Source of the DNA: Mya arenaria | Lineage: Eukaryota > Mollusca > Bivalvia > Myida > Myidae | Assembly (NCBI RefSeq): GCF_026914265.1 | Contig: NC_069132.1 | Coordinates: forward strand, 30,126,932 to 30,190,931 | Reading direction: 5' to 3' | DNA: 64,000 nucleotides | The notes under the pieces: model-generated | What the model saw: the letters and a program-made list of their open reading frames with translations, nothing else | Told to the model about the DNA's origin: nothing | Database searches by the model: none | Shown here: positions 13,301 to 56,789 of the stretch, in pieces | How positions within the stretch are numbered: the first letter of the stretch is position 1 | How the letters are laid out: the number at the start of each line of letters is the position of its first letter | Program-made: the position numbers and the translations under genes

Positions 13301-15112
13301 GTTAGTCGTAGCTACGGTGACATTATGTGTAGAATGACTGAGACTTTCAAGAGTCCTATACGCATATTTTGTAAATATTATCTTTGATATGATTATCCAA
13401 ACAATAATTGAATGATTCGATCACCAATGCACATTTGTGCATATGTAAAAACAACACATGGTTTTAAACTTTGAGCTGATTTTGCATATAATGTCACTGT
13501 TAATGAGATTAACAGATGTGTTAGTCGTAGCTACGGTGACATTATGTGTAGAATGACTGAGACTTTCAAGAGTCCTATACGCATATTTTTTAAATATTAT
13601 CTTTGATATGATTATCCAAACAATAATTGAATGATTCGATCACCAATGCACATTTGTGCATATGTAAAAACAACACATGGTTTTAAACTTTGAGCTGATT
13701 TTGCATATAATGTCACTGTTAATGAGATTAACAGATGTGTTAGTCGTAGCTACGGTGACATTATGTGTAGAATGACTGAGACTTTCACGAGTCCTATACG
13801 CATATTTTTTAAATATTATCTTTGATATGATTATCCAAACAATATTCAAATGATTCACCAATGCACATTAGTGCTTATGTAAAAACAACACATGGTTTTA
13901 AACTTTGAGCTGATTTTGCATATAATGTCACTGTTAATGAGATTAACAGATGTGTTAGTCGTAGCTATGGTGACATTATGTGTAGAATGACTGAGACTTT
14001 CACGAGTCCTATACGCATATTTTGTAAATTATTATCTTTGATATGACTATCCAAACAATAATCAAATGATTCACCAATGCACATTAGTGCTTATGTAAAA
14101 ACAACACATGGTTTTAAACTTTGAGCTGATTTTGCATATAATGTCACTGTTAATGAGATTAACAGATGTGTTAGTCGTAGCTACGGTGACATTATGTGTA
14201 GAATTACTGTGACTTTCATGTGGCCCTTACGCATATTTTTTAAATATTATCTTTGATATGATTATCCAAACAATAATTGAATGATTCACCAATGCACATT
14301 TGTGCTTATGTAAAAACAACACATGGTTTTAAACTTTGAGCTGAATTTGCATATAATGTCACTGTTAATGAGATTAACAGATGTGTTAGTCGTAGCTACG
14401 GTGACATTATGTGTAGAATGACTGAGACTTTCACGAGTCCTATACGCATATTTTGTAAATATTATCTTTGATATGATTATCCAAACAATAATTGAATGAT
14501 TCGATCACCAATGCACATTTGTGCATATGTAAAAACAACACATGGTTTTAAACTTTGAGCTGATTTTGCATATAATGTCACTGTTAATGAGATTAACAGA
14601 TGTGTTAGTCGTAGCTACGGTGACATTATGTGTAGAATGACTGAGACTTTCACGAGTCCTATACGCATATTTTGTAAATATTATCTTTGATATGATTATC
14701 CAAACAATATTCAAATGATTCACCAATGCACATTAGTGCTTATGTAAAAACAACACATGGTTTTAAGCTTTGAGCTGATTTTGCATATAATGTCACTGTT
14801 AATGAGATTAACAGATGTGTTAGTCGTAGCTATGGTGACATTATGTGTAGAATGACTGAGACTTTCACGAGTCCTATACGCATATTTTGTAAATTATTAT
14901 CTTTGATATGACTATCCAAACAATAATCAAATGATTCACCAATGCACATTAGTGCTTATGTAAAAACAACACATGGTTTTAAACTTTGAGCTGATTTTGC
15001 ATATAATGTCACTGTTAATGAGATTAACAGATGTGTTAGTCGTAGCTACGGTGACATTATGTGTAGAATGACTGAGACTTTCACGAGTCCTATATGCATT
15101 ATTTTGTAAAGA
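4367..15112. repeat. ~215-bp satellite array, about 50 copies
   Basis: Head-to-tail copies of a ~215-216-bp unit running from TGATTCACCAATGCACATTA through TTGCATATAATGTCACTG, TGTGTAGAATGACTGAGACT and ATTATCTTTGATATGATTAT. Each unit carries a hairpin CTGTTAAT-GAG-ATTAACAG and, in most copies, a perfect palindrome CGTAGCTACG a few bases later. Variants (CACGAGTCC, AAGAGTCC, ATGTGGCCC; GATTTT for GACTGA; a 4-bp GATC insertion in GATTCGATCACC) are arranged in higher-order patterns. Each unit has a 73-codon minus-strand open frame (ending ...STNVHW), but 215 is not a multiple of three and the frame resets in every unit, so it is not regarded as a gene. GC content and composition are uniform throughout. 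Confidence 0.97.
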
Positions 15113-15400
15113 TTAAGTTTCAAATGATTATCCATACAATTTGTAATTAATTGTGTATACAGGGAAGCACAGACTTGAAATACTTTAGTTTTAAGCTGCT
15201 CGATCAAAAACTTTGTAAATATTGCATATCTGCCCTTAATTAAATCTGACACAAAGTCCAGAAAAACATACGATAAATCTGTGAATCGGTTCCACCAATT
15301 GATTAGCTTGGAACTCGAATAAAGGTCCTTGAAATCGGCTTGAAAACTTCCCTCTTTTTTGCTAGCATGGCTGTATGAACCCTGGTTTAAAATTATGATC
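15113..15400 (-). pseudogene. Coding-like segment flanking the satellite, right copy
   Basis: Minus-strand frame 15400 to about 15150 reads NQGSYSHASKKEGSFQADF, then LINWWNRFTDLSYVFLDFVS and YAIFTKFLIEQLKTKVFQ. It is related to the left flank at 4030-4335 in nucleotide sequence and in frame. The open frame then runs into the satellite and loses meaning. Plus-strand order is B'-A' here and A-B on the left, so the two are not simple terminal repeats. No family recognised. Confidence 0.4.
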
Positions 15401-25356: not shown

Positions 25357-26761
25357 GTACCGGGGATAGCTGGAGCAAATAAATAACTGCACAGGGGATA
25401 GCTATTAACTGTACTGAGGATAGTTGCGATGTATTTATATTAACGAGACTGTGATGATGATTACGTCTTCTTAACTCTATGCAAGCTCAGGGAAAACTGT
25501 CCAATGTTGTCCATATCGAGAAATTAGAGCAATAATGTTACTGTTATATGTATAGTATACCTTACATAAATGTGTCCCTTGTTTGTATATATAAATAAAG
25601 ATGATCGGTCCGTATGTCTTTGCATTCTAATGAAAATTCAGTTTTATATCATCAGGTGTCCATATCATAAATATAATATTGACCGGTGACGTCATACAAC
25701 TAGTAAGTGCGGCTTGCTATTTCCACAACGACGTAGAAAAGTCGCAAGAAAACTTCATTAGCTTTGTTAAATAAAACACACCTACAGCGCTTTAAACGTA
25801 TTTAGTGGTAATATAAAAGGTTCGGTATAATATAAAAAATATTTACATTACACTTCGGGCACCAGTCAATTGTAACCACGGCCTCCCAGGTCCTGGGGTA
25901 TACCGGGGATAGCCGGGGAAAAGGGCCGTGTTTTTACTTTCCATGTGCCCCCGCAGGGCCGGGTGACCGCGGTGGTTTTGTCATAGTGCCAAATTTAGCG
26001 GTGATTGGGCCTTATGTAGAGTCTCTGGGGTGCGGGGGCATTTGGCCGGGGTTTAACCATCAGTTTGTTCCCGCAGGGCGGGAATTTTACCCGGGGTTGG
26101 CTGGACCGAAAGTCAAAGTCCCGGCTATTTTTGCAACGTTTTTGCACACTAAATCATCAATAATAAATAATATATTGTGATCAAATTTTGTTCACTTGAA
26201 GCTGTTTCTAAGCTTGGATCGATGTTGCTATTACTTAGAACAGGAAATGGTCTCAGCTCGTTCACTTCACCGAGAAACTAAGTATTGTGACCAACCTTGA
26301 AATATAAGCAGCATGCATACACATGTATACGTTCATTTAGGAGGACATGTACCAAACTCATTGATAACTTAAGTTTATTCAATAGTTTGTCATTACATTG
26401 TACTCTCACTTTTGCAGATAATTTGAAAAATGGATTTGACGGATGCATCCATGGATTTGTCAGCGGTAACTGTGACTGAGGATAATGGAAAAAAGTTTGT
26501 GTGCAGCATATGTACCTATTCAACTGACTACAAAAGCAACCTGAAAAGGCATATGAATGTACAAAGAGACATACCAAGGACCAGCACTCCAAAATCTAAA
26601 GAAAAGGCGAATGAAATATCGAAGCCATTAAATATTATGTGTATTGTATATATACTGTTATTGTGTTACGATCATCTTGGTCCATTTTTGCATGCTATCC
26701 CCAGTACACATTGCTCAACTTTGAAACTATCCCCAGTACACAAAACGGCTATCCCCGGTAC
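25357..26761. mobile_element. Putative element bracketed by oriented GTACCGGGGATAG motifs
   Basis: Seven copies of a ~13-bp motif lie at 25357-25370, 25391-25403, 25411-25424 and 25901-25914 (GTAC[C/T]GGGGATAG orientation, with variants) and, inverted, at 26694-26707, 26726-26739 and 26748-26761 (CTATCCCC[A/G]GTAC). Direction flips between the two sides, like subterminal transposase-binding sites of a DNA transposon. A GC-rich segment (25860-26130) lies inside. Exact ends and target duplication were not found, so the element assignment is inferred from motif arrangement alone. Confidence 0.45.
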
Positions 26762-26771
26762 AGTATCGTGA
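26430..26771 (+). CDS. Short ORF with incomplete C2H2-like zinc finger
   Basis: The frame follows a good acceptor (TCTCACTTTTGCAG, ending 26416) and opens MDLTDASMDLSAVTVTEDNG, then KKFVCSICTYSTDYKSNLKR HM. The C-x2-C and the first His fit a C2H2 finger (linker with Y/F and L in place), but the second His of the usual H-x3-H is a Gln (HMNVQ), so metal binding is doubtful unless a later residue substitutes. After about residue 70 the frame runs into the inverted CTATCCCCAGTAC motifs, so the real exon probably ends earlier. It sits within the motif-bracketed element and could be an element-encoded DNA-binding exon or a decayed host exon. Confidence 0.35.
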   Translation: MDLTDASMDLSAVTVTEDNGKKFVCSICTYSTDYKSNLKRHMNVQRDIPRTSTPKSKEKANEISKPLNIMCIVYILLLCYDHLGPFLHAIPSTHCSTLKLSPVHKTAIPGTVS

Positions 26772-35249: not shown

Positions 35250-38200
35250 TCAACGAGCTATAAAGCAACACCAAGACACCACCACTACGAGAAATACCAG
35301 TGAGCCAAGAACAATGCCAACAATTTCACCGGCACCCAATCCTTTCTTTGATTCATCGTCTTTATTGTTTTGATCCCTGAAAAATAACAGACATATATCG
35401 TTAAAATTGGTGATGAGTTGACATTATGTACATACACAGTATGAACATCGACGGGTTATGTTTTTAATCACAAACAGATGTATACACCATGCTTGTCTCA
35501 TTCTGTTACACGACATTCGACATTTGCAGATATGTAGCGGATTGTTGGTGTGTGATGTAACTCGAATTTCATGAAAATCCCTTAACGGGTTTCGGAGATA
35601 CGGATCAGACAATAACGTGTGACAGACAGACAGCCGGACGTACATCCGTGCTCAAACATTGTGTCTCCCCTGCTAAGCATTGGGGGAATTATAAGTATCT
35701 TTCATGGCCGAGAGTGTAAGATATGTTTATCCCGATCCGAGTGTAGGGTGTTTTGCGGAAACGAGGTTTACCGAGTTTCCGCAAAACACCCTGCGCGAGG
35801 GTCGGGATGAACCTATCTTACACGAGAGGCTATGGTAGATGCTTTTTCTCCCACCTCAGTTAAACAAAGTTAAGTAAAAATGTATTTTTTTGCTTGAACT
35901 CTTTTGTGCTTAATAAAAATAATTGCGCATGGATATGCGATAATTCATGGTTGTCATGGATATGCGCTCAATGATTCAGATGATGTTTATAGTCAAATCG
36001 GTCTTTAAATAGTTCTAAAGAGAGTGAAGCATTAATTCTTGAAAGGTGCATGAAAACTGTTTTATGGTTTACATTTGAAGCGAGAAATAATTAATAAGCG
36101 TTCTAAATATTGCCACAAGAAAATGTTTCCATGATACTACAGACGACAGTCTTTAACAAGGGAGGTAATTACAATGTGGTGACCATTGAAAAGAAGTTCC
36201 ATACGGGCATTTTTTCTTCGCCCGTGGGCAAGATAAGAACTTCTAGCATGGTTAAGTATGGATCTACTTATCTAAGGTGGGAGAAATAATTGTACCTAGG
36301 GCAAAAGCAGAACACCATAATTATGTGCCAAGAATCAAAAATTATACTGCTAGGTTGATTTTGATTCTTATTTTTCAGTCGTATTGATGAAATGGTTTCG
36401 GATTTAAACAATCAATCAATTTATATAATATATATAGGTATGAATTTTACGGCCCTTCTCATAAATGTAATGCTGGTGACACTTTGTTTTACTTTGTCAA
36501 ATCTAACAACTTATTTATTTATTTATTTAAATAACACTAAACTGCACTATCCGATCATCATATTTATGTTGACATTTGTTGTAAAATCAAGGTTTATTAT
36601 GTCCTTTTTCAATTCTGTTCGTATCAGTTTTCGGTAAATGAGGCATTTTCTGCTCTAAATTATTTTTTATTTTTTTAAACAGTTACTGAATAAGGCGACT
36701 AGCCGAGAACCCATTGGTAAAAGTGGTCTATCAACATTATATTCATTGTTTTAAGTCCATGTGTAACCAAATATAACATAACGCCCGTTCCTCTTAAACC
36801 TGCACTCAATACTGAGATGATTACTCTTAAATATCTTAGAATATCAACGAAAATCTACTTATATAGACATTTTGTTTTCATTAACACTAACAACTATTAT
36901 TCATACGTACTTCACCGTATCTACTGGAACAGTCTCCGGATGACAGGACCTTGTTTCGTCTGTTTCATCGTACAAGAACGTTGTCTTTTTGAAGTTCCCT
37001 TCAGTTGTCGAAACAAAGCCAGGTACAGGGGTGTCTTTGAATGAAAATGACAAGTGATCACAAAACGCAATATGTTTTATAAAATATAGAGGATAATTGT
37101 TTGTAATGAGCTATCAATAATATTTCATTGAGTGAGCACCGATAGTTATGTTTGCACAAGTTGGTCACCGACCTTTTCAGTGTCACGTTTAATTATGTAT
37201 GCTTCAAGGTCATCTTTACTTATATTAAACGGCAAACATTTGAAACAAACTTCTGTCAGATTAAACCAGCCCAGCCCTAATGATGCAACATTTTTGGACA
37301 GAACAACAGTCGACCTTCTGAAAAAATAAATGAATCCAACCGACTTTAGCTCAAAGGGTTATCAATGTTTTGTTGATTACAGGGTAATATCGTATTTTAC
37401 ATCACTTGTAATTTTTGAAATAAAATAATTCACTCGTGGTTTTGCCACTACTCGTGATCATGATTTTTACTCGTGGATTCGCTAATCCTGAAAATATCGT
37501 TCCACAATGATCACAAATAACGTAAGGAATAAACCACAAAGGCACTGTAATTACTTCAAAAGTAGTCCTCAAAAATGCCAGAGAAAAAAAAACATACTGA
37601 CTTTACTTGCTTTATAATTGGAACTTTTATAGTGTCATTGCATGGTCTTTAATCATTATAGCTATATAAAGGACTTGACTGGAAAATAAACAAGACAAAA
37701 ATTAGTCTACCTAGGTTGCTGGGGTTGTTAAAGCCCCTTGTGATTCGTCAAGACCAACCTCGTGCAGTCCACAGTTGAGGCAAGTGCAAGAGTGTGACGT
37801 TTTTATACGTTTTTATCACTTTGCTACTTTATATCATAATTCAAACTTTTCTAATAAAATAACTGGCCGAATTTAATGTTAAAATAAAAATTAAGACCAA
37901 TTAATTACTACTTTCTTGAATTTTATGATATCTTAGAATGATAGTAGTATTTGATTATTTCGTGTTATATGCTTGAAATGAAAACTATATTAAAGATCGG
38001 AAATAAACCACAAGATAAAATTGAATTTGTTATGTTTTGGTTTGTTGTTGTTTACAAATAACTGAACTGAACAAACATGTATTTTGACTTAGCTTACTCG
38101 TACGTTCATTGAAATCACACACCAAACCAACCTAGCATTTAGTAAGGGCGAACAGTCAATTGCTAACGTATGCGAGTTGGTTCCCCGCTTGCAGACTATG

Positions 38201-40790
38201 CGTTACGATAAAACCAGGGATACTAAACAAAACAGTTTGCTGACGTGAGCGACTGTTAGCCATAATAAAACGCAGGTACTTTTATTTGTGGTGATCTGTC
38301 TACAAAAAATATTTGTATGTTTTATTTTGTCTGGCAATTTATCATCATTCGTTCAGACGTGTCAATTATAAGATTAAAAAGGGCATTTTTAAAATACAAT
38401 TGCTGTCTCGGGCGTCTTTTTGTTAGTTAATTCTACATATGCAGTATTTACCCAAGTCATTGTATCTATCAGGAAAATGCCCGTTGGTTATCTATAGAAA
38501 AAACGTATTGTTGGTTTATGACAGCAGAACTGGCAAAATTTCAAACAAATCAAGCAAAGTTATTATGACAATATAAATCCATTTGTGTAAGGAATGAATG
38601 AGATGCCTGAAGAAGTAGTTGTCTGAGCCTGTATCGGATAAACATCTGACTGTGTTCCCAATATTACTTTTCAAGGCTAATTATCTCTTCTACTGTTCTA
38701 GACTTTGGTCTTATTTGCCTTAATAGCGTTTGCACTCAGTAATTCATATCCTGATATATTAAAAGCTGAATGGGGAATTTTGTTACTCTACCCACACAAA
38801 TTGCCCTAACTGATAAGCCATATTGCGGTTTTGTGAACCCTGTGTTAAATCAACACTCTTGTCATGTTATTTCCTACTACCTAAGACTGAATTATGATAA
38901 TGTAAAGTCTGGGGAAATGGTATTTCATTCTGTTCATATTAATGATTGATGTAAACTATGTTCGCGATAATTGTATCATGTACTAAGTTTAATAAAGCGA
39001 GTAAACTTTATAATTAACCCAGCTTGTGTTATGTGAACCCATGTTTTCTGTGTACCCCCCCCCCCCTCGCCTTTTGGTTCTATGCGACGCCAATTGCCCA
39101 TTTGTTCCGTGTGACCCCAATTGTTCTGTTGGACCCCCATTCGTTCTATGTGACCCCCATTTGTTCTGTGTGTCCCCATTTGTTCTGTTTGACCCCAATC
39201 TGTACTGGGACCCCATTTATTCTGTTCGACTACTTCTTGTTCTGTTTGTTATATGTGACCACCATTTGGTATGTATAACTCTATTTATTTTTGTACTGTT
39301 TAACCACCATTTGTACTGTCGGATCACCACTCGTTCTGGGAGACCCCGTTTACGCTGTTTGACCACAATTTGTGCTGTTTGACCACCATTTTCCATTTTT
39401 GCTTTGCGACCACCATGTTTTTTCTCAGACCCCGGTCTTCATTTGGTCTGTCTGACCCATCAATACTATCTGAAAACCATTTGTCTGTGTGACCATCAAA
39501 TTCGTACTGCTTGACCAATTTAAGCTGGGTGTCCCACATATTTTCTTTTGTGTAATCCATTTGCTTTGTGTGACTCAAATTTATTATGCATGACCCATTG
39601 TGTTCTGTGTGACACATACTTGTCCTGTGCGACCCCTATTTGTTACATATATTAAATATATGTTCAGTGACATTTAATTATACTGAGAAGGACGCTAACG
39701 CAACCAATCCAACCAATCATACAGGAACACATACATACCTGTGAAACACTCACACCAACATAGGCAAACAATTAAAAGTGAAAAACCCTGCTTACATAAA
39801 ATCCTTACCTCTGTCAAGAATAAATGTTTCGTTAAGCGGTGTCTGCATATTTGTCTTTAATAAAATACACTTGATATCATTACGTCTGGTTTGTTTGTCT
39901 ACATATATAACGTATTTCCGAAGACCGTTTACACTCATAGTCATCATATTTGTCTCATTGCCCTCAATGTAGATTTCTTCTCCGCCATTATTTTGTTGCA
40001 AGATAAATACATCAATAAAGTACCAAACATACTTCTGGTGCATTGTATTTGATAACTCTTTGACATTGTCGAGTGTCTCCATGTCGCCTCTAAGAAATAT
40101 AAGGAATCTACTTTTACACCTTGAGTCTTCTTTTTCAAAAGAATCTATCATTTGTCGAACCTGCCTGTCCCACCATTCCGACTCTGTAACAAGACTGTTT
40201 TGCTTTAATTTCTTGTATGAAAGCTCAATAATTATCCCAGTTTGTGTTAGATTGAAAAATAAATCCTTGAATTCCTTAATACCAGACATATTGCATTTAG
40301 AATTAGCAGCCATTAATTCTAACAGAGATACATCTGCATTCGCAAGGGACGTTTCTAAACGTGACGGGAGGCTTCGAATATCTGCGATAATCAATGAGGC
40401 TTGCGTTTCAAATCGTTCTTTTTCTATGATCTTTTCACTTTCATTCGCTAATAAATATGCTCTTAAATCGAGAAGAACACTCTGAATCTTGTAGTTGACT
40501 TCATCAATCTTTGACAAGGACATCGTTTCCTTTATGCCCCCATACAACTGGTCCTGAACGACAGCTAGCTTTTCAGAGAAGGCAGTGATTATTTCATTTT
40601 TTGCATTTTCCAAATTTTCAGGAGATGCTGTTTCCTTTTCGTCATTCCCGTTTACAATTTCAAATATGAAATTGGCAAAATCGACTGATGTTGAAACCAA
40701 TGACAGAAAACCCACTGCTCTTCTTTCGTTGTTCTTTGTGTAGGCAGTAGCACATAGAACACTTAAAACGCACAGAACTCTTAAATCCAT
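35250..40790 (-). CDS. Gene A: type I membrane protein of an unrecognised three-paralog family
   Basis: Three exons: 40790-39809, 37034-36911 and 35376-35250; joined in frame they give about 410 residues. Start MDLRVLCVLSVLCATAYT is a signal peptide. The ectodomain looks mostly helical (ENAKNEIITAFSEKLAVVQD; IRSLPSRLETS; LLELMAANSKCNMSG) and has N-glycosylation sequons (NMS, NLT). Conserved Cys occur in NSKCNMSG, SRCKS, IKCILLK and, from exon 2, RSCHP. Exon 2 gives DTPVPGFVSTTEGNFKKTTF LYDETD. Exon 3 gives KKGLGAGEIVGIVLGS, a hydrophobic helix, WCC and only FIAR after it. Donors GTAAGG and GTACGT and acceptors ATTCAAAG and TTTTTCAG are good, and phases (1, then 2) match genes B and C. Intron 1 holds a minisatellite, intron 2 a hairpin repeat. 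Function unknown; probable cell-surface protein. Orientation is head to head with gene B. Confidence 0.85.
35400..35690. repeat. Probable dispersed repeat in gene A intron 2
   Basis: Sequence such as TGAAAATCCCTTAACGGGTT and GTGACAGACAGACAGCCGGA CGTACATCCG resembles molluscan dispersed repeats; only one copy is in the window. Confidence 0.35.
35716..35821. repeat. Long hairpin in gene A intron 2
   Basis: Near-perfect inverted repeat: GTAAGATATGTTTATCCCGA and AGGGTGTTTTGCGGAAAC pair with GTTTCCGCAAAACACCCT and TCGGGATGAACCTATCTTAC around a ~12-base loop. A further inverted pair, TTCTCCCACCT (about 35846) and AGGTGGGAGAA (about 36275), may mark the ends of a larger MITE. Confidence 0.85.
37100..39050. 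other. Gene A intron 1, no separate gene seen
   Basis: AT-rich intron between exons 2 and 1 of gene A. Open frames lack motifs or splice support. Confidence 0.5.
39050..39645. repeat. ~21-24-bp pyrimidine-rich minisatellite in gene A intron 1
   Basis: Degenerate copies of TTTGTTCTGTGTGACCCCCA across about 590 bp. Open frames on both strands (for example 39026-39382) are products of this repeat. Confidence 0.85.
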
Positions 40791-43700
40791 TCTTGAATGT
40801 GTATTTTTCTGTTTTTACTATATATCTCTGAATCGAGTTCGTTAAACACGGTAGAACAGAGTGATAAAGTAGATTCCAATATTCGTTTACATTGTCGTGA
40901 CCATGTAGAAATAGAACTCTGTCTGAAAAGGCCAATATACTATTATGTATCCTGTTGTTCGCTTCACATGTGTATTTCTCTCGTAGAAATCATCTACTTT
41001 TCAGACGGCTGAAATTGGTATTCATACTAAAAATAAATGACAATTCAGTGGTAACACCAAAGAGCAACGTTGAGATAGTTAAGTGACAATAATACACAAA
41101 ACATACAACGATTATTCGGTATTTGTTACGTGTTTAAACCGCTACGTTGGAGTACAAGAGGATGAAAGTCATTTGATTAATTAATTATTCATCAGTACTA
41201 AACTTAGAATAACACAGAATTAGGTTTAAAAACAATAATACAATTTAAATACCTTACCCCATGAAGTTATACCCACATTATAGCTCGTTTTAATTTTTTA
41301 TACGTACCAGAAATACCAATTCATTGGATACTATGGACTTTGGTATGTATATAAGTTCATGATACAAAACTAATTCATTGTTTTTTTATTGCCAGTCAGT
41401 ACAGTGCTATACATATATTCATTTATATTTTATATGCAACTGATTAAAACAAAAACATAACATTTATTTTGTCCTTAACTCAGTGTTCAATCATGATTGC
41501 ATTCAAATCTTTGCAAAACGTCTGTGCGAATTCATGCATAAGCATTGTATTTCTGTCACTTATTCTGCGTTTGCAAGAAGAAAAGAATGACATCACCGAT
41601 AAATTCAGACAATTACTAAATTAAACGCACCCACAACACGCAAATTGCGGCACACCCAAAAATGCCGAACTCATGAAATGTTCAAGAGTTCATTGACTAA
41701 ATGATTCCATTCTATGTTTGAATGCCAATTGTATGCTAACATAAGAAAGAAAGAAATACCTAGATATTATCATCCCTCTATGTTCAAAGTTATTGAACTT
41801 TTTCTGTCAGAGCTATGTTTGTGTTTAAGGCTTTTGAATTAAGAAATAGAAATACACAGTCATAGTAATTGTTTCGTAGTACTTGTTTATTATACATTGT
41901 ATTAACATAGTGTAGCTGTGTAAAAGATACAATTAAATAATTGTGTTACTAGCTATATATAATGTTAATTAAAATGAAATTTATTGAATATTTATCATAG
42001 TAAAATTGAAATGAATTGTTAAGCTTCTAAACACGTTAATTTATTTCTCACATTATGTCTGCCTACTTATAAACAATACGTTGTGACCGGTCGCTATGTA
42101 TTTATGCATTAAATTACGTTTACAAATGATCAAGGGTCATTTTTGACCTATTTCATTGACTATATTTGTTTGAATAGTTTTTAAAAAAATGTTCTGTTCT
42201 GTTCTGTATTGTTTTCAAATAATATGCTTACTAATTATTCTAGGCTTTTCCTTGTAACATATTTGCGATCCCCTCAGTGTCATATCTGATTGAATTGTGT
42301 CTTGCATTGTTCAATAATGTATTGAAATCATTGGAGGTAAAAAAGTCATGAAGTTTAATCTAAGCCAATCCTCAAACCTATCGCGCTGTTCTTTGTTTTG
42401 TAATTAGTCAGTAGATATGACAAAAGGTATACTGACGAGAAAATATCTCATCATGAAGTTCATTTAATACCAAACATTTAAACATTAAACCTAAGCGATT
42501 ATATTGAGGGTCAAAATCAAAATTCAAAAAATGTCATATTTTCAAAAATTATAATCCTCAACACTATACATGTCAACATTTGTGTCGTATTGTGAACGCT
42601 TGGAGATACCCCAAACCACTGATGTCATTTGTGTCTTAGATGTTCAGCACAGTGTTGGCCCCTTTGACCTTACTTGTGCAGAATGGGACAAACTATGGGA
42701 ATCGTGTGTACTAAAATGTTCTTACTAATGAAGTTATACTAACGCCATCAAAACGACAGAGACGTCAGCTATCAGACTTTCTTAAGTGTGACCTAGTTGC
42801 TGTACAATCACAACATTTCTTACAATATTTTCCTTGTCTTTTTCACAAGGCACGTGCAACACGTGGTTTCAATAACTGAACAAACTCAAATTTCAAGTGT
42901 TATTATTCACAAGGCCCTAATTAAGTATGTGAGTTTACAGAATGTGAACCAAAAGATCAGTGCATGGTATACACACACATCGTAAATATAACAGTACAAA
43001 TTTCTAAAGAATTATTAACGAAGCAAATTTATGATGAATATAACAGTAATACCGCTTGAATTCAAAATATCGTAAAGTAACTTACTATTATTAAAACACT
43101 CATTTTATGTTTGAAATAATATGCGTAATACAAATCAAACTTCAACACTTTGAACTTATGAAATATTCAAAAAAGGTTAAAAAATATCATCAACTATAAA
43201 ATAGTTCAACAATAGTGAATATAACATTAAAACAATAGAACATCAAAACTAAAGTGCAATGCAACTTTATTAAGTGTCATACAATTACAAAAAGTCTACC
43301 ATGACACTATTATTACCAATATAAAAGACAAAAGTACATATCTAATAGCATACATATATAACTGTGATGCAAAAATGTTCACAACCAACATGTAAAACAT
43401 AACAAAATAATAACAGAATAAAAGAAGAAGAAGAAATGAAATTGCTAGGTAAAAGTTGACCAATTTATAAAAGTGGAAACATTCTGGCATAATATGTTTA
43501 GCAAAAGGAGATATTTTTTAGCTTAAATTAAAATAAATTGTCAAATTTATACACAAATGGGTGCCAGTAAAAAATTATTAATGATAATGAAACATTATGA
43601 CTTGAGTTCGACAATCTGATCTAATAAGTAGGTAGATATTGGGTATCTTGTTTTTAAGGATTCACTACTCGAAAATACTAACGTAACATTTTCTTCTGAG

Positions 43701-43855
43701 TATATACGGGCTAAAAATAGGTTAACCAATATGCGTAATATTCAAGAGAAGTTTTGAAATTCCAAACGTTTCAGTAGTGGCTTCTTAATCTGAATACTTA
43801 TTTCGCTCTGTTTCAGTACGAAGATTATTTTATTTCATTTTTTTAAATCTGTTAA
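40791..43855. other. Intergenic region between genes A and B (promoter side of both)
   Basis: About 3 kb between two divergent start codons, so it should contain both promoters. I see no clear TATA at a convincing distance, no gene and no obvious repeat. Confidence 0.5.
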
Positions 43856-46297
43856 ATGAAATCAAACATGAATTCAAAAGTGATTTTATGTATTGTTCTA
43901 CTTCTACTGAGTAAATATGTACAAGGCGGGAACATCAAAAGAAAAGTAAAATTTCTTCCACTTGTTTCAACTGCTGTTGACGTTGCTGACAGTATATATC
44001 AAATTGCTATGCCGAATGATCAAGCAGACGCTGTAACTCCTGAACAATTGGAAGAAGCAAAGAATGAAATATTAAAAGTGTTCTCTGAAAAGCTAGCTGT
44101 CGTCCAAGCACAACTATATGGGACTATAAAGGAAACGATGCTATTAGCAAACATTGATGAAATTAACTACAAGATTCAAAGTGTCCTTCTCGATTTAGAA
44201 AATTATTTATTAGAAAAAGGCAATGAACAAAAGAAATTAGAATTCGAAAGGCAAGCGGCACTTTTTATCACGGATATTCGAAGTCTCCCTTCGCGTTTAG
44301 AGAAATCGTTTGCTAACGCTGATGTTTCTCTTTTAGAATTGATGGCTTCTAACTCAAAATGTAATATGAGTGGAATTAATGAATTTAGGGATATGTATTT
44401 AAATCTAACAGAGACTGGAATAATAATCGAACTCACCTACAAAAAACTGCAAGATAGCTCTATAGAAACAGGGTCTGAATGGTGGGACAGCCAAGTTCGA
44501 CAAATGATCGATTCGTTTGAAAAGGGAGATACAGCATGTAAGAACAAATTTATTGAAATGTTGAGAACCAATATGGTGACAATTGACAACGTTACAGAGT
44601 TATCAACTTTAGTCCATCAGAACTATGTTTGGTACATTATTGATATATTTATCTTGGAGCAAAAACAACCCGAAGAAAAAATATTTATCGATGGCACAAC
44701 TTCAAATATGATGGCTTTACTGGTGAACGGGCTTCGCAAATATGCGATCTATATTGACAGACAAACAAGATCGAACGACATTAAATGCCTTCTTCTTAAG
44801 ACATATACTCAAACACCGCTAGATAACATATTCGTCCTCGATGCAGGTAAGAATACTTAATTATAGTCTGTGTTTTAATTTTTAAATTATCGTGCAGAGG
44901 ACTAATTTAGATGATTATGAAAATGTCTACATCATTGACAAAAAGTATTTAGGCTCTTTGTTATTTTTAATATTAAATTTACCTTTGAATCTGCATTTGA
45001 TATTCAGTTTAGTATAAATTCCTGCTTGTTGTGGCCGTGGGTTCACATGATTCCGTTAATGTGTTTAGTTATTTGTACCTCTCAGCACAAAAACTATTTA
45101 TGCACATTTTTAGACGTTTGTGAAATTAAATTAAAAAATAATCAGGTATGACTATGATGATTTTTTTAGAATTAGTTTGTGTGTGAATGGGGGGCTGGTT
45201 TGGTTTTATATGTCTATGTTTTTCTCTTCTACACAAAGAAACACCTGTTCCTGGTTATATATCAACTATTGACGGGGAATTCAAAAAAACCTCATTCTAC
45301 TACGGCGAAAATGGCCTCTCTGAATCATGTCATCCAGATATTGTCCCGGATATAGAAGTACTGTATGTATTATTTCCACTATTCCAAGTTTCTTTTTAAT
45401 TCTCACACAATTAATGAATAATTCAATGCATGTTTAAGAGTTTCTTTTATATATTTGGATAATTTAAGTTCAATATTTTGGGTTTTCAGACTTGAGCAGT
45501 TCTATAAACTTATGAATGCTTACATAAAAATATTTCTTTAGGTATTTCCTTCTGATATCATTATAAGAAAGACATATTACTATGAAATTTAATACATCTC
45601 TATATAATGGATATTTCAAAACTTACAATAACGTTCATTTCTTTGAATGTTGTTAAAAGTTATCGGTGTTGATTCTTAATGAATGGTCAGACACTCTTAA
45701 TCTAGTAAAATGACATCGTAAGTCATGTGGTGAAACGTTCAAGTATTGTTCGTATATATTGATGAATATGAATAAAACTTGATTCTCATTAGTCAGCAAC
45801 TAGGTGCATAAACTTATCATGCCGAGGAAAATATGTTTAAATTTTTGTTAAGTTTATTGTTTTAGTAACATAATATATCATAAAATGCCTTTATATATCC
45901 GGCCTAATCTTATGATTTGGTTCTGTGGAACGGGCCAAATTTTCAAAACAGTGACTTTAAATTTCATCTAACTGCTTCGTCATTTACCTTTAAAATGACA
46001 TAAAAATAAAATAAGTAATACAATAACCTCTTACTGGAGAAAAAAGGATATATTTGCCATTTATCATTTAGAGACACGCCGGAAAGCGAAGAGTCAAAAG
46101 ATGGACTGACTGTCGGACAAATAGCCGGCATCGTCACCGGATCAGTACTCGTAGTTAGTATCCTTGTTTCCGTTTGCTGCTGGTGTTGCAGGCGCAAAAA
46201 AATGGAATTAACAAAGGGGCCTTTAAACAAACATACTACTCCTGTCCCCCCCTGTACTCGTAATGTTGACTTGTTAATGAAACTGGAGATATATTGA
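43856..46297 (+). CDS. Gene B: type I membrane protein, paralog of genes A and C
   Basis: Exons 43856-44846, 45239-45362 (124 bp) and 46072-46297. Starting at the first Met gives 446 residues; the second Met (43868) gives the more usual signal peptide MNSKVILCIVLLLLSKYVQG and 442 residues. The ectodomain shares EAKNEILKVFSEKLAVVQAQ LYGTIKET, IRSLPSRLEKS and LLELMASNSKCNMSG with A and C, and the conserved Cys positions. Exon 2 gives ETPVPGYISTIDGEFKKTSF YYG...SCHP. Exon 3 gives DGLTVGQIAGIVTGS, a transmembrane helix and CCWCCRRKK. Its cytoplasmic tail is the longest of the three (about 35 residues, ending MKLEIY, with TPVPP). Donors GTAAGA and GTATGT and acceptors CTACACAAAG and ATCATTTAG fit. 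Function not recognised. Confidence 0.85.
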
Positions 46298-46757
46298 TAA
46301 ATATTACCAAAGTTATGTTACAAGATTGGTTTCAGCGTGTTTAAGAAAGGGGTTATGTGTTAAAATATTGGCTAAGTTAAAGGTTAAGCTTTAGTAAGAG
46401 ATGGTGTTATTATGTGTAAAGGAAATTAATTCTTGGATTACAAATACATAGAATATTGTTAAAGTTGATTGCAATAAGGTATACTCGTGTTGAGCATCGA
46501 AAAGAATAATCGTCGGTTATTAGAGATTTTTAATTATTTTGTTTTATTTATTTATTTGGTATATTATATACGTATTCATATGATATACGATATTATAGAA
46601 TTAGACCTAATATGTATAAGATTGTACATCTTTTGCAGGCCAAGAAGGTTAATACTGTGTAAAAAACGCTTTTATGTATTCTTAAACAAAAGTGACTTCA
46701 AAATGTTATTTCAACTTTTTAAAGAAAATATCTGTTTAATATTTTGGCAACATTTGC

Positions 46758-46763
46758 AATAAA
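46758..46763 (+). terminator. Possible poly(A) signal of gene B
   Basis: AATAAA in TTGCAATAAAAATC, about 460 bp after the gene B stop. Confidence 0.35.
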
Positions 46764-46907
46764 AATCAATGCAGTCGTTTGTTGTTCTTACACTCTTTTC
46801 ATCGCCGTCGCCCATGTCGCCGCAGACGTCGTCCTCACCGATAGATGGTAGTGATTTTAATAGCCCTCGTCGTCGATATGTATAGCTTAATTTTCATTAT
46901 GAAGGTC

Positions 46908-46924
46908 ATCATCATCATCATCGT

Positions 46925-47001
<77 letters not shown>

Positions 47002-47021
47002 CCACCACCACCACCACCACC

Positions 47022-47055
<34 letters not shown>

Positions 47056-47122
47056 TCATCATCACCACCACCACCACCACCACCACCACCACTCCCATCA
47101 CCACCACCTACACCACCACCAC
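46908..47122. repeat. Trinucleotide microsatellite (CAT)n then (CAC)n blocks
   Basis: Alternating pure blocks of CAT/ATC and CAC/ACC, about 215 bp. The long Ile/Thr and Met/Val frames here are artefacts of the repeat. Confidence 0.95.
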
Positions 47123-47299
47123 CATACTCCGCAAAGTCCGTAAGTATGAACTTGACCTATCTGTTATGACACGACACACTTTGCTGACAAGCGGGCCGTT
47201 TTTTCCTGCTTGACCGTAGACAGTTTTTTCTCAAATCTATTGTGAAATTCGTGATTACATATTTGTGATTTATGAAATGTGTGCCCAAACCGATGTATA

Positions 47300-50200
47300 C
47301 ATGCCTGTTCACTGATCAGTCTGAAACAGGACCAATATCAGTCTAAAATAGTACAAATAGTTCACTGATTAGTTTGATATAGTATCAATAATTCACTGAA
47401 CAGTCTGAAATTATACCAATAGATTACTGATCAGTTTGAAATAGTACCAATGTCGGTCTTAGATACTATCAATAGTTCACTTATAACCTAATAGTGTGCT
47501 AAAGGAACACTAATCCGTTTAAAATGCAAAAGGTACCAAAAATTCACCAATCAGTTTAAAAAAGTACTTAAAGCTAACTGATCAGTTTGAAATAGTACCA
47601 ATGTCGGTCTAAAATAGTACCAATAGTTCACTGATCAGTCTGAAATAGGACCGATAGCTCACTGATCAGTCTAAAATAGTACCAATAGTTCACTGATCGG
47701 TCTGAAATAGTACAAATAGCTCACTGATCGGTCTGAAATAGGACAAATAGCTCACTGATTGGTCTCAAATAGTACCAATAGCACACTGATCAGTCTAATC
47801 AAGTACCACAATCAGTATATAATTGTATCAATAGTTCACTGATCAATCTGAAATAGAGCCTATAGCTCACTGATCAGTCTGAAATAGTACCAATAGCTCA
47901 CTGATCAGTCTCAAATAGTACCAATAGCACACTGATCAGTCTAAAATAGTACCAATAATTCGCTGATAAGTCAAACGAAGTACCAAAATCGGAATAGAAT
48001 TGTAATAATGGCTCACTGATCAGTCTGAAATAGAACCAATAGCTTACTAATCAGTCTGAAATAGTACCAATAACTCGCTGATCAGTCTAAAAGAGTACCA
48101 AAAGCTGACTGATCACTCTGAAATAGTACCAATAGTTCACTGGTCAGTCTAAAATAGTACAAATAATTCACTTATAAGTCTCACCAAGTACTAAATTCAG
48201 TATAAAATTGTATCAATAGTTCACTGATCAATCTTAAATAGAACCGATAGCTCACTGATCAGTCGAAAATAGTAACAATAGCTCACTGATCAGTCTGAAA
48301 TTGTATCAATAGTTCACTGATCAGTCTGAAATAGTAATAATAGCTCACTGATTAGTCTTAAAAAGTAACAATAGCTCACTGATCAGTCTGATATAGTAAT
48401 AATAGCTCAATGATCAGTCTAAAAAAGTAACAATAGCTCACTGATCAGTCTGAAATAGTACCAATCGCTCACTGATCAGTCTGAAATAGTAACAATAGAT
48501 CACTGATCAGTCTGAAATAGTAACAATAGCTGACTGATCAGTCTGAAATATTACCAATAGTTCACTGATTAGTCTAACTAAGTACCAAAATCAGTATATA
48601 ATTGTATCAATAGCTCACTGATTAGTCTGAAATGGTAACGATAGCTCACTGATCAGTCTAATCAAGTACCACAATCAGTATATAATTGTATCAATAGTTC
48701 ACTGATCAATCTGAAATAGAGCCTATAGCTCACTGATCAGTCTGAAATAGTACCAATAGCTCACTGATCAGTCTCAAATAGTACCAATAGCACACTGATC
48801 AGTCTAAAATAGTACCAATAATTCGCTGATAAGTCAAACGAAGTACCAAAATCGGAATAGAATTGTAATAATGGCTCACTGATCAGTCTGAAATAGAACC
48901 AATAGCTTACTAATCAGTCTGAAATAGTACCAATAACTCGCTGATCAGTCTAAAAGAGTACCAAAAGCTGACTGATCACTCTGAAATAGTACCAATAGTT
49001 CACTGGTCAGTCTAAAATAGTACAAATAATTCACTTATAAGTCTCACCAAGTACTAAATTCAGTATAAAATTGTATCAATAGTTCACTGATCAATCTTAA
49101 ATAGAACCGATAGCTCACTGATCAGTCGAAAATAGTAACAATAGCTCACTGATCAGTCTGAAATTGTATCAATAGTTCACTGATCAGTCTGAAATAGTAA
49201 TAATAGCTCACTGATTAGTCTTAAAAAGTAACAATAGCTCACTGATCAGTCTGATATAGTAATAATAGCTCAATGATCAGTCTAAAAAAGTAACAATAGC
49301 TCACTGATCAGTCTGAAATAGTACCAATCGCTCACTGATCAGTCTGAAATAGTAACAATAGATCACTGATCAGTCTGAAATAGTAACAATAGCTGACTGA
49401 TCAGTCTGAAATATTACCAATAGTTCACTGATTAGTCTAACTAAGTACCAAAATCAGTATATAATTGTATCAATAGCTCACTGATTAGTCTGAAATGGTA
49501 ACGATAGCTCACTGATCAGTTTAAAATAGTACAAATAGCTCGCTGATCAGTCTGAAATAGTACCAATACCTAACTGATAATTCTAACCAAGTACCAAAAT
49601 CAGTATAGAATTGTACCAATAGCTCCCTGATCAGTCTGAAATAGTAGCAATAGGGTACTGGTCAGTCTGAAATTGTACCAATAGCTCACTGATCAGACTG
49701 AAATAGTACCAATAATTCACTGATGAGTCCAACCAAATACCAAAATCAGTATAGAATTGTATCAATAGCTCACTGATCTGTCTGAAATAGAACCAAAAGC
49801 TCACTGGTCAGTCTTAAATGGTACCAATAGCTCACTGATCAGTCTGAAATAGTACCGATGGCACTTTGATCTGTTTAAAAAGGTACCAATAGCTCACTGT
49901 TCAGTCTGAAATAGTACCAATAGTTCACTGGTCAGTCTAAAATAGTACCAATAATTCATTTATAAGTCAAACCAAGTACCAAAATCAGTATAGAATTGAA
50001 TCAATAGTTCACTGATCAGTCTGAAATAGAACCAATACCTCACTGATCAATCTGAAATAGTACCAATAGCTCCCTGATCATTCTAAAAAAGTACCAGCTC
50101 ATTGATCAGTTTAAAATAGCACAAATAATACGCTGATAAGTCTAACCAAGTACCAAAATCAGTATAGAATTGTATCAATAGTTCACTGATCAGTCTGAAA

Positions 50201-51365
50201 AAGTACCAATAACTCACTGATAAGTCTGAAATAGTACCAATAATTCGCTGATAAATGTAACCAGGAACCAAAATCAGTATAGAATTGTATCAATAGCTCA
50301 CTGATAAGTCTGAAATAGTACCAATAATTCGCTGATAAATGTAACCAGGAACCAAAATCAGTATAGAATTGTATCAATAGCTCACTGATCAGTCTGAAAT
50401 AGTACCAATAGCTCACTGATCAGTCTGAAATAGTACCAATAGCTCACTGATCAGTCTGAAATAGTACCAATAGCTCACTGATCAGTCTGAAATAGTACCA
50501 ATCGCTCACTGATCAGTCTGAAATAGTACCAATCGCTCACTGATCAGTCTGAAATAGTACCAATAGCTCACTGATCAGTCTGAAATAGTACCAATAACTT
50601 ACTGATTATTCTAAAATAGTACCAATAGCTCACTAATCAGTATGGAATAGTACCAATAATTCGCTGATAAATGTAACCAAGTACCAAAATCCGTATAGAA
50701 TTGTATCAATAGTTCACTGATCAGACTGAAATAGTACCAATAGCTCACTAATCATTCTAAAATAGTAACAATAGCTCACTGATAAGTCTGAAATAGTACC
50801 AATAACTCACTGATAAGTCTGAAATAGTACCAATAACTCACTGATCAGTCTGAAATAGTACCAATAACTCACTAATCATTCTAAAATAGTAACAATAGCT
50901 CACTGATAAGTCTGAAATAGTACCAATAACTCACTGATAAGTCTGAAATAGTACCAATAACTCACTGATCATTCTAAAATAGTACCAATAGCTCACTGAT
51001 AAGTCTGAAATAGTACCAATAATTCGCTGATAAATGTAACCAGGAACCAAAATCAGTATAGAATTGTACCAATAGCTCACTGATCAGTCTGAAATAGTAA
51101 CAATAGCTGACTGATCAGTCTAAAATAGTACCAATAATTCACTTATAAGTTTAACCAAGTACCAAAATCAGTATACAATTGTTCAAATAGTTTACTCATC
51201 ATTCTGAAATAGTATCAATATTTTACTGATCAGTCTACTATAATACCAGTGGTTCACTGGTCAGTCTGAAGTAGAACAAATACTTCATTGGTCAGTCTGA
51301 AATAGTACCAATAGTTCACTTGTCAGTCTGAAAAGTACCAATAGTACACTAACAAGTCTGCAATA
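47300..51365. repeat. 31-bp minisatellite, ~4 kb
   Basis: Consensus AATAGCTCACTGATCAGTCT then GAAATAGTACC; each unit centres on the palindrome ACTGATCAGT. Some units are replaced by a longer variant containing AACCAAGTACCAAAATCAGT then ATAGAATTGTATC. Segment 47791-48653 is repeated as 48654-49516 (offset 863 bp) with no differences that I noticed, which indicates a recent duplication. Copies decay towards both ends. Non-coding; it separates genes B and C. Confidence 0.95.
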
Positions 51366-52811
51366 TCTTGATATTTTGAGTCTTGGTATGACAGAAATTT
51401 GTTAGATAATTGTTTGAGATAAATACAACGTGCCATATATTTCAGATAATTCTTCATACATCTGTAAAAAAGCATTGGATCAATATGTCCTGGAGATTAA
51501 TACCAGAAACTGACGTAACGTGCCGAATTTAGCAAAATGTATAAAGCAATGATTCATAATTATGTCATTGAAGAAGTATTAAAGTCAGTGGGTTTTTCCG
51601 CTTATTCAAAAATAGACATACGTCACCTATCAATTTAGACACATCATCTAAAGCAATCGTGCCAGAAACCCTTCAAGACGATAATAGATCTTTTGGTGAT
51701 TTCTTTTGTACAGTAACAAATCCTTTCAAACATGTTAAGTAAATACGAAAAATTTAATTATCGAATTTCTACTTAAAGTGTTACTTAATACCTATTCTGT
51801 GTCATGGTCAATCCTTGTTTTTGTATTTATAATATATAAGGGCCTATAAATGATTTTCCTTGTTTCAATGGAACTCCTTTTTGTGTAATAGGCTAAGAAG
51901 TCAGCCCTTAGTGCATTTAAAAAAAACTTCATTAAATTGGCTTCTTATTCCTTAATAATGTGCTTGTCTAATACTAGCTTTACTTTTGCAATTTCAGTTT
52001 TATCACTATTTATTTGGTTCCAGTTATTCTAGTTTTGGGGTATTTCTAGTGTATATGTTTTGATCAAGAGAAATGCAACACTAACAGACAGTTACTTTTA
52101 CCAGTCAGTATTCGAATTGCATTCCCCGTAATTTCGCGAAAAGTATGCAAATGAAATGGTAAATAGTGTATCAATATATAGCTTTATAGAACTTAACCTC
52201 GTCTTTTTAGAGCTTTACCTAAGTTTATTGTAATTATGTTTATTCAAATGAGGTCCGTGCTTGCTCCGCGGCGTTATCCCGCCGATGGACGAAGAGGACT
52301 GTCTGGCAAATTCAAGAAAGGCGGTGTTAACATGCCAAGTCTTGGCCCGTGAAGGGATGCTATCAACAAAACACCGAACTACATATTTAACACATGGTGA
52401 GCGATATCATTACGAGTTTAAATAAGTTTACATGTCACACCGATAGCATCACAGTTAGCCTGGTTGATTCGAGGGCAGCGGCATTATGTTCCTCCAGCCA
52501 ATACCATGTTTTGGTACTGCCGAAAAGACCCAACAACTACCGACTGGCACCCCTCTAGTGTGACTTAGTTCAGGACAAATGTGTGTAAATAGTTAGAATC
52601 AAAATTCAAAACCAACTCAACCTGATTTGGTAGTGCCAAAAATATCTACACCGACCGAAATAGTGTACAGTAATATAGTATTACTGAAAATAATAAGTAT
52701 GTGGTGAATATCCGAATTAAAAATCAACTGAAGTCTGTTATCACAAAACATTATTATGTCGAACAGTATTTTAACAAAATACCTGCTCCAAAAACGGCTT
52801 TCCTCTGGAAA
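51366..52811. other. Intergenic stretch, nothing firmly recognised
   Basis: A slightly GC-richer part (52240-52400) carries CGCGGCGTTATCCCGCCGAT but no consistent frame. No gene called. Confidence 0.5.
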
Positions 52812-52965
52812 TTTAGAAACAGCTTGTTAGTTATTCGAAAATATGCTAAAGTTCCATCAATTTTACGGATAACCTTATTATCTCCGACTTCTTGAGCATG
52901 GAACAGCATATTCATGTGAGACATTCAAACCGAAAATAGACGGGAAACAAGAGTTTTAGAAATTA
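52812..52965 (+). repeat. Upstream segment of gene C shared with 31895-32060
   Basis: Contains GGAAATTTAG, TTAGTTATTCGAAA and GACTTCTTGAGCATGGAACA, matching the other copy. It could include promoter elements of gene C. Confidence 0.45.
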
Positions 52966-53112
52966 CTATATTTGGGCTTTGCCTTAATAGTCAACTAAAT
53001 CAAGGCCATTCTTGTTTGTGTTATTACATTAGATACTATCATCCATTTCAATACTAGAAGTAGCTTATCTTGCTTGTATTAGCATTCAAAATTAGGAACA
53101 TTTATTCAGAAA

Positions 53113-55033
53113 ATGGATTTGAAATGTGTTTGCCTGTTATCTTTAATGTTAACACATGTCCAAGGAAAGAACAGAGAACATAGAGCGGTCAAATTGCTTC
53201 CAATTATTTCGACTGCCGTTGAAATTGTGGATGCGATTTATGATATCTTTTCGCCTGAGCCCCGCGTCGTTTCTCCCAAAGATTTAAGGATAACAAAAAG
53301 GGAAATAATATCATCGTTTTCTGACAAACTTGATGTTGTCCAAGCACAGCTGTACGGAACAATTAGGGAGACTCTGTCACTATCTAAAATCGACGAGATC
53401 AACTATAGAGTACAAAGTGTTTTGCTCGATTTGAGAGATTATCTTTTAGTGAATGGCAGTGAAAGGATCACCAAAAAGGACGAATTTGAAAGCCAAGCTG
53501 CGCTTAGAATCGCAGATATTCGAAGTCTTCCATCGCGATTAGAAAAGTCCCTTACGACCGCTGACAAATCACTGCTGGAACTGATGGCTGCTAATTCGAA
53601 ATGCAACATGTCTGGAATAAACGAATTTAAAAACTTTTATCTCAATCTTACAGAAACGGCTATAATAGTCGACCTTTCCTACAAAAAGCTTAAACAAAAC
53701 AGTTCTCTCAAAACGGAATCAGAATGGTGGAATGGTCAACTTCTACAAATGACCAAAAGTTTTGAAAACGAAGATAAAGCATGTAAAAGCAAATTCCTCT
53801 CACTGTTGGAAAGCGATTTAAAGACAATTGATGGTGCCGAAGAGCTATCAACTAATGTACATCAGAAGTATATTTGGTATATTATTGATATATTCATCCT
53901 ACAACAAAATGGTGATGGCGAAGAAATCTACATCGACGGCAACGCCTCAACAATGCTGACTTTAGGCGTGAACGGTCTTCGCAAATATGCCCTGTATATA
54001 GATAAACAAACGAGATTCAACACAATCAAGTGCCTATTATTGAAGACAAACGCCCGATCGCCTTCAGTTGACGCTTTCATTCTTGATATTGGTAAGAAAT
54101 ACAAAAATGTATTTAACAAAACTGTTGTTATATTGATCCTTGTAGAATCAAAATCAATGTATCGAATAAATAACAAAAGAATGTTTTTATTTGTTTAGTT
54201 GATAAGAAAAGATGAGAAATTTGATTCTAGAGAATTTTCCTTATACATTGTATTTGAATAACACAATAAAAAATTCAGAGACAAGCCCGTAAGTCGAAAA
54301 TTCAAAATGTCAAATACAAGCCCTCTTTAGAGGCAGAGATGAAGAATTCTGATTTCCGTTCGAAAATTGTCAATATTGATATACGGATTTCCATTTTTAT
54401 CCGATGTCACATTAATTGCCAATTTACAAAGCGTTAAATTGAGTCAAAAGCTAGTAGATCAACTATAACAACCTTTTTCCCTTTTAAGACACCCCTGTAC
54501 CGGGTTATGTTTCCACAATTGAAGGAAGTTCCAAAAAGACCACATTCTTCTATGATGAAACTGATTCGTCAAAGTCATGTCATCCAACTACGATCCCAGA
54601 TATCGTGATAATGTAAGTTGTTCGATGCAAATCTACAGCTGGTTAAAACATAACAAAACTTTTTTTTGTCTTTAGTTTAGCTTACAGAGTAAACTTTGGT
54701 AGTTGACGATTAGACAGCTCTGTCAGATCATGAAAATTAGCTTCAGTTTCTTCTTTTGATTCGATAGGCTTAACACTTTTCATGTTAATAAAACTTTTTT
54801 TTATTTGTGATATTTTAAACAAAGTTCCCCAAAAGTAGCGAATCACGAAATATTTTCTCACATTCCATTATCCATTTTCTTTCAGAGATCAGGTCGAAAT
54901 TGGGGCAATTGATGGATTGGGCACGGGAGCCATTGTTGGTATCGCTATTGGTTCAGTTACTGGATTTATTGCTCTGGTTGCCGTTCTTTGTTGGTGTTGT
55001 CGTAGAAATAAATGGCGTTATAGACGGCCATAG
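53113..55033 (+). CDS. Gene C: type I membrane protein, paralog of genes A and B
   Basis: Exons 53113-54091, 54489-54612 (124 bp) and 54886-55033 give 416 residues. Signal peptide MDLKCVCLLSLMLTHVQG, then an ectodomain with FSDKLDVVQAQLYGTIRETL, KIDEINYRVQSVLLDLRDYL, IRSLPSRLEKS, LLELMAANSKCNMSG, SEWWNGQ and VHQKYIWYIIDIFIL. Exon 2 gives DTPVPGYVSTIEGSSKKTTF FYDETD...SCHP. Exon 3 gives DGLGTGAIVGIAIGS, a hydrophobic helix ending LCWCC, and a basic tail RRNKWRYRRP. The Cys after the helix could be palmitoylated (inference). The first exon can be read through its donor for 35 codons, but the conserved GTAAGA donor and the in-phase paralogous exons show that splicing is the normal form. Proteins A, B and C can be aligned over their full length up to the tail. 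No known family recognised. Confidence 0.87.
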
Positions 55034-55142: not shown

Positions 55143-55260
55143 CTCAAACGTGTGAATTCATCTACATGAAGCAGACGGACGGACATAAGTGGTTTAATCG
55201 TGTATGTGATAACATAGTCCTTTATAATCGCAGTAAATTGTATAAAAGACAAACACGCAG

Positions 55261-56177
55261 TAAGGTTTGGTTTGGTATAGGATCATGATAAGGGTACGGT
55301 TTGGTTTGGTATAGGATCATGACATCGGTACGGTTTGGTTTGGTATAGGACCATGACAAGGGTACGGTTTGGTTTGGTATAGGATCATGACATCGGTACG
55401 GTTTGGTTTGGTATAGGACCATGACAACGGTACGGTTTGGTTTGGTATAGGACCATGCCAAGGGTACGGTTTGGTTTGGTATAGGATCATGACATCGGTA
55501 CGGTTTGGTTTGGTATAGGACCATGACAACGGTACGGTTTGGTTTGGTATAGGACCATGACAACGGTACGGTTTGGTTTGGTATAGGAGCATGACAAGGG
55601 TACGGTTTGGTTTGGTATAGGATCATGACAACGATCAGGTTTGGTTTGGTATAGAACCATGAGGACGGTACGGTTTGGTTTGGTATAGGACCATGACAAC
55701 GGTACGGTTTGGTTTGGTATAGGACCGTGACAACGGTACGGTTTGGTTTGGTTTGATATAGGACCATGACAACGGTACGGTTTTGTTTGGTATAGGATCA
55801 TGACAACGGTACGGTTTGGTTTGGTATAGGACCATGACAACGGTACGGCTTGGTTTGGTATAGGAGCTTGACAACGGTACGGTTTGGTTTGGTATAGGAC
55901 ATGACAACGGTACGGTTTGGTTTGGTATAGGACCATGACAACGGTACGGTTTGGTTTGGTATATGACCATGACAACGGTACGGCTTGGTTTTGTATATGA
56001 CCATGACAACGGTACGGTTTGGTTTGGTATAGGACCATGACATCTGTACGGTTTGGTTTGGTATAGGACCATGACATCTGTACGGTTTGGTTTGGTATAT
56101 GACCATGACAACGGTACAGTTTGGTTTGGTATAGGACTATGACAACGGTACGGTTTGGTTTGGTATAGGACCATGAC
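55261..56177. repeat. 34-bp minisatellite, about 27 copies
   Basis: Consensus GGTACGGTTTGGTTTGGTAT then AGGACCATGACAAC. Copies are well conserved, with GGATC, GACATC and AAGGG variants. All three minus-strand frames stay open because the unit lacks stops and 34 is not a multiple of three; the resulting 102-245-residue frames are translations of the repeat, not genes. Confidence 0.95.
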
Positions 56178-56789
56178 ACTTTTAGCATGGGCTTTAACAT
56201 TTGAACAAAAGGTTCCGAGATCATCTCCAGGATGGATGTCAGGATAGGTTATGCTTTGTTTATCTTCATCAAAATTAAGATTGTAAGTACACGACAAATG
56301 TTGATGCAAAGAATTATAGCCGCAGCTATATGGATTATATATACATATTTACACCTCAACTTCCATTCCTTAAATGAACTGCTTTTCGGCAATTGCGTTC
56401 ACCAATCGATGAACGCAACATCTTCGCATATGTTCGGATCGTTATTCATTGCATAACAATATACATGAAAGCTATTGATCTTGCTATTGGTTGTATTGTG
56501 TCTGCAGGTCCCGTAAAATATAGATCAACATTTTTAAAAGTGTTAGTTTATTATATTTTAAATATATTGGTACCACAAGTGTTTCAATTTTACGTTTTAA
56601 AGTGATTTCAAGTGGTTGATCTTTTCCCGCGTTATTGTGACGTCATTTGAAAAAAAAATGTTTCCGGTTGTAGTCGGGTCGTTCTATTTACCGAATGGGT
56701 AAGAACGGGTTACTGAAAGGTTTTCTTAAATGAAATGAAGTAGTTTTTAACAATTCTTGAATGAAATAATGAACTATTGGTGTAAATAT
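56178..56789. other. Non-coding stretch, nothing recognised
   Basis: No supported exon or repeat, apart from the low-complexity A run at 56653. Confidence 0.5.

Follow-up and report, generated by a model that had tools for sequence, protein, structure and literature searches.

The stretch of Mya arenaria DNA analyzed here (NC_069132.1, positions 30,126,932 to 30,190,931 of the forward strand; 64,000 nucleotides, hereafter the window, with positions counted from its first letter) contains three paralogous genes, A, B and C, whose exons were mapped and joined with a script. The coding exons are as follows:

Gene A exon 1, 40790-39809, minus strand: N-terminal hydrophobic segment, putative helical rapunzel-type domain and part of the C-terminal ectodomain, ending in phase 1
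Gene A exon 2, 37034-36911, minus strand: 124 bp, with DTPVPG, FKKT and SCHP
Gene A exon 3, 35376-35250, minus strand: linker, membrane helix, Cys tail, stop
Gene B exon 1, 43856-44846, plus strand: layout as A exon 1; identical to LOC128209828
Gene B exon 2, 45239-45362, plus strand: 124 bp
Gene B exon 3, 46072-46297, plus strand: linker, membrane helix, longer tail, stop
Gene C exon 1, 53113-54091, plus strand: layout as A exon 1
Gene C exon 2, 54489-54612, plus strand: 124 bp
Gene C exon 3, 54886-55033, plus strand: linker, membrane helix, Cys tail, stop

Each gene has three coding exons, and the spliced products are 410 (A), 446 (B) and 416 (C) amino acids (aa) long; positions 35250 and 55033 are the final stop-codon bases of A and C. 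All six introns are bounded by GT-AG and measure 2774 and 1534 bp in A, 392 and 709 bp in B, and 397 and 273 bp in C. Pairwise protein identity is 57-60% over the 406-413 codons compared, so that the three genes are homologous rather than alike by chance. They are intact M. arenaria genes. An earlier sequence-only reading of this DNA had described three paralogous genes, and this is confirmed by the spliced exons, with junction phases of 1 and then 2 and a 124-bp middle exon common to all three. Its view of the genes as intact paralogs that probably encode type I membrane proteins also holds, on the basis of intact frames, hydropathy, and conserved cysteines, exon lengths and phases.

Topology was judged from hydropathy and sequence features alone. 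The N-terminus is hydrophobic in A, B and C, and near the C-terminus of each protein lies a single strong membrane helix (Kyte-Doolittle means over 19 residues of 2.81 in A, 2.46 in B and 2.52 in C). The signal peptide and membrane helix named in the sequence-only reading are therefore upheld as far as hydropathy goes, as a hydrophobic N-terminus and a single C-terminal helix. Four ectodomain cysteines, whose fixed positions had been noted before, are conserved in all five copies compared (A, B, C and the paralogs P0001 and P0004, described below), as are two N-glycosylation sequons, NMS and NLT. Such invariant cysteines and sequons agree with a domain that lies outside the cell and bears disulfide bonds and glycans, and A, B and C are in all likelihood type I proteins of the cell surface. 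The ectodomain would open with an all-helical domain of the rapunzel type, encoded within exon 1 (approximately residues 24-245 in B). The rest of exon 1 and the 124-bp exon would form the next region, in which two more cysteines are fixed. After it would come a linker, a single membrane helix and a short Cys/Arg tail; no signalling motif was visible by inspection of this tail.

The same sequence-only reading had regarded the family as recently expanded. Synonymous (dS) and nonsynonymous (dN) divergences, calculated by the Nei-Gojobori method with our own script over the whole coding sequence, are rough because several segments are saturated: dS is 1.46 and dN 0.314 for A-B (dN/dS 0.21), 1.97 and 0.308 for A-C (0.16), and 1.68 and 0.340 for B-C (0.20). 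The highest dN is found in the N-terminal segment, followed by the last exon. Between copies, introns and upstream regions have only 14-17 bp matches in common. With dS of 1.46-1.97 and noncoding sequence this divergent, the family is old and maintained, not recently expanded, and A, B and C are under purifying selection. The dN/dS comparison that had been proposed as a check supports maintenance of the genes, and the dS values do not support a recent expansion.

To place these genes among annotated proteins, a database of 5.8 billion proteins, other Mya proteins included, was searched with the gene C protein. Four proteins (P0001-P0004) were returned, all from M. arenaria, and since each is listed with the same longest contig, of 71,350,902 bases, they presumably derive from one chromosome. 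The gene B model agrees with P0002 (LOC128209828) at every one of its 446 residues, also across the two junctions. P0003 (MAR_001185, 388 aa) is gene A under another annotation, in which exon 2 begins 12 residues later than in our model, using a downstream acceptor near 36999, and 10 residues are missing from within the single large exon 1 of gene A (39809-40790); the difference perhaps reflects polymorphism, alternative splicing or an error of annotation. The other two proteins, P0001 and P0004, are further paralogs located outside the window. P0001 is most similar to A (75% over exon 1), and the family has at least five copies in Mya. A tblastn search with the four Mya database proteins as queries found no extra copy in the window. 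Gene C (53113-55033) was not returned from the protein database by its own query and may therefore have been missed by current annotation; its splicing accordingly rests on paralogy and splice signals, and its place in the family would follow from its 57-60% identity to A and B.

The proteins encoded by A, B and C very probably belong to the rapunzel family, and they are likely to be type I, single-pass, membrane-anchored members of it. All four Mya database proteins carry a precomputed PF27742.1 annotation, given without a score. The residue pattern had pointed to rapunzel beforehand, and a separate search with two rapunzel-like sequences returned 653 matches at E-values up to 1. PF27742.1 is present on all 120 of the matches listed; the named sources among these are all fishes, including one shark, and many of the proteins, with some left unnamed, are called rapunzel. 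The Pfam entry thus covers the rapunzel family, and by that assignment the clam proteins are members, contrary to the earlier statement that they fit no known family. In a profile comparison with hhalign, the Mya profile scored 37.2 against a rapunzel profile led by a shark protein, P0113, colinear over Mya positions 34-246; none of 120 column shuffles reached this score (maximum 30.4, mean 15.9, standard deviation 2.6), and the reversed profile gave 14.0. A 50-row joint alignment includes G186, I188, W208 and C226 (P0007 numbering) among its invariant residues. Structure prediction, also proposed earlier as a check, was run on the four Mya proteins; in the resulting low-confidence model the helices appear to follow the rapunzel helix order, with 138 of 195 positions in agreement and 6 of 175 circular shifts equal or better.

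Several results weigh against this assignment. The reported probability of the best hhalign result is just 36%, and the other comparisons stayed at null level: 14.2 with a fish-only profile, 3.9 for a forced global alignment with the shark-led profile, and 14.0 with one further sequence, while the shark sequence alone gave 17.2, inside its shuffle range. With HMMER rapunzel profiles, the five real Mya proteins ranked at best 51 of 6892 and 85 of 6877, in the midst of shuffled decoys, and with a Mya profile the real rapunzels ranked 23 of 3649 at best. The Mya-only model was unusable, at a predicted local distance difference test (pLDDT) score of 35.4, and was left out of the fold search. For the C-terminal ectodomain, the comparison of clam and shark P0113 scored 13.0 against a null mean of 13.8, and a kinship suggested by a shared SCH motif in a MAFFT alignment was dropped at this null level. 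The PF27742 label on the annotated copies is known from database annotation, and gene C appears to have no database entry of its own. The link between clam and rapunzel proteins is a remote one, resting mainly on the curated PF27742 assignment. Pfam, NCBIfam and PDB searches by sequence gave no usable match for the clam proteins, PF27742 being absent from the Pfam set scanned. Two Pfam matches were rejected because they stay below cut-off: Giardia VSP on the membrane helix (E 0.0034, 16.7 bits where 31.4 are required) and CC_BshC on a coiled stretch (E 0.0045, 17.3 where 27 are required). A viral structure library yielded nothing at E-values up to 0.001, and no paper naming PF27742 was found in the literature searched.

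Beyond the Pfam entry, fish rapunzels have in common with the clam proteins a putative helical domain of about 200 residues, which can be aligned in the same order throughout and keeps G-I, W and C at matching positions. The fish families are multi-copy, as is that of the clam, with five zebrafish paralogs and ten lungfish sequences reported (PMC4764851). Fish proteins such as P0007 and P0060 (225-227 aa) have a charged start and end with the domain, whereas the clam proteins, at 17-21% identity to P0007, have a hydrophobic N-terminus and the two conserved sequons, and extend beyond the domain with more ectodomain and a membrane anchor. Shark P0113 (Hemiscyllium ocellatum, 394 aa), which leads the best-matching profile for Mya, also carries PF27742 and continues from the domain into a C-terminal region of clam-like length, but, unlike in the clam proteins, inspection shows neither a signal peptide nor a membrane helix at its C-terminus. 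A statistic on the N-terminal hydrophobicity of 75 fish rapunzels was dropped, as it picks an inner hydrophobic stretch and not a signal peptide. Another fish entry, P0006 (Arapaima gigas, 413 aa), looks by eye like a divergent rapunzel followed by a standard one and is perhaps two merged neighbouring genes.

Reported roles of rapunzel proteins are varied. Zebrafish rpz mutants are described as having more fin-ray segments, and the gene was there termed novel, teleost-specific and of unknown function (PMC3894163), while fish RPZ5 is reported to block interferon induction via degradation of phosphorylated IRF7 (PMC8113963). Proteins or transcripts of the same name are also reported outside teleosts. 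In planarians, RAPUNZEL-1 protein serves as a marker of goblet cells of the medial gut (PMC10715919), and rpz4 shows enrichment in the medial intestine (PMC7117911). In resistant oysters, expression of a transcript named rapunzel 5 changes upon bacterial challenge (PMC4133350). To these the clam genes add a branch that is apparently membrane-anchored and extracellular. Together with the surface topology, the reported roles lead us to lean toward innate defence or a barrier function at the surface of epithelia or blood cells, where the helical domain of the clam proteins would act outside the cell, by binding and/or self-assembly. Such a role is a tentative proposal that falls somewhat short of even odds. 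The oyster change counts against it, being downward (log fold changes of -8.68 and -8.64; PMC4133350) and thus a poor fit to a simple induced defence protein.

The proteins could instead be recognition or adhesion receptors without membrane action, with a glycosylated helical ectodomain that attaches to a ligand or to an adjacent cell, and an anchor that serves for display only. The type I layout, the fixed cysteines and sequons, and purifying selection all agree with this plausible reading, to which we give about one chance in three; the proteins show no evident signalling motif, and neither a ligand nor a partner is apparent.

A different possibility arises from the predicted resemblance of the rapunzel helical domain to the N-terminal part of the Vip3 proteins, insect toxins made by bacteria. 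If the domain has both the N-terminal helical fold of Vip3 and its working mode, the clam protein would be a membrane-active effector, tethered and then released or activated, whose helices form oligomers and enter the membranes of microbes, or those of cells that are infected or diseased. We regard this as unlikely, and direct membrane action by the clam proteins as equally doubtful. Vip3 chains carry large further domains after the helical part. The seven listed chains of these Bacillus insecticidal proteins are 648-777 residues long, whereas the clam proteins, at 410-446 aa and membrane-anchored, stop about 165-200 residues past the helical domain, with the membrane helix near the end and none of the large further domains of Vip3. 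Vip3 was not among the Pfam matches of A, B and C (E-values up to 10) or of five related proteins (E-values up to 1), in a library whose Vip3 content is unchecked, and no paper naming both rapunzel and vip3 was found in the literature searched. A helical domain common to rapunzel and jellyfish toxins is an unconfirmed lead, and the same literature gave no paper joining the two. With low probability, the rapunzel domain may be an animal version of a Vip3-type helical module, deployed in the clam as an anchored, releasable, membrane-active defence protein and turned in fish, without a signal peptide, to the control of growth and interferon. If the predicted Vip3-like fold is correct, it would offer a concrete, testable idea of how the domain acts. 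It is probably the most interesting lead for these genes, which themselves would represent a membrane-anchored form of a family that is known but little understood.

That A, B and C form a clam-lineage family unrelated to rapunzel, with the PF27742 label a false positive, is improbable. Two protein searches with clam queries returned Mya proteins only, at E-values up to 10, and most direct profile tests were at null level. However, these searches reach only relatives that have exact five-residue words in common, a single Pfam accession covers all four Mya proteins and all 120 listed matches of the rapunzel query, and the shark-led hhalign score exceeds every one of its 120 shuffles. Decaying or transposon-derived open reading frames, which surroundings rich in repeats might suggest, can be set aside almost entirely given three intact frames, dN/dS of 0.16-0.21, conserved splice sites and an annotated orthologous model for B.

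Several tandem repeats lie elsewhere in the window. A long satellite array lies at 4349-15140, with a 215-bp unit in approximately 50 copies at 93-94% matches (a 431-bp dimer was scored too), and a 31-bp minisatellite with more than 100 diverged copies separates B from C (47337-51365). Directly downstream of C, at 55260-56178, a 34-bp minisatellite of about 27 copies contains several minus-strand frames with long open stretches, which are probably not coding, and a 44-bp array (132-bp higher-order) runs from 61865 past the window end at 64000. Rfam and ARAGORN searches returned nothing within the window. On the plus strand, an open reading frame at 26427-26771 encodes a single zinc finger of the C2H2 type (zf-H2C2_5 at 28.3 bits, marginally over the cut-off of 27) and is perhaps a gene exon.
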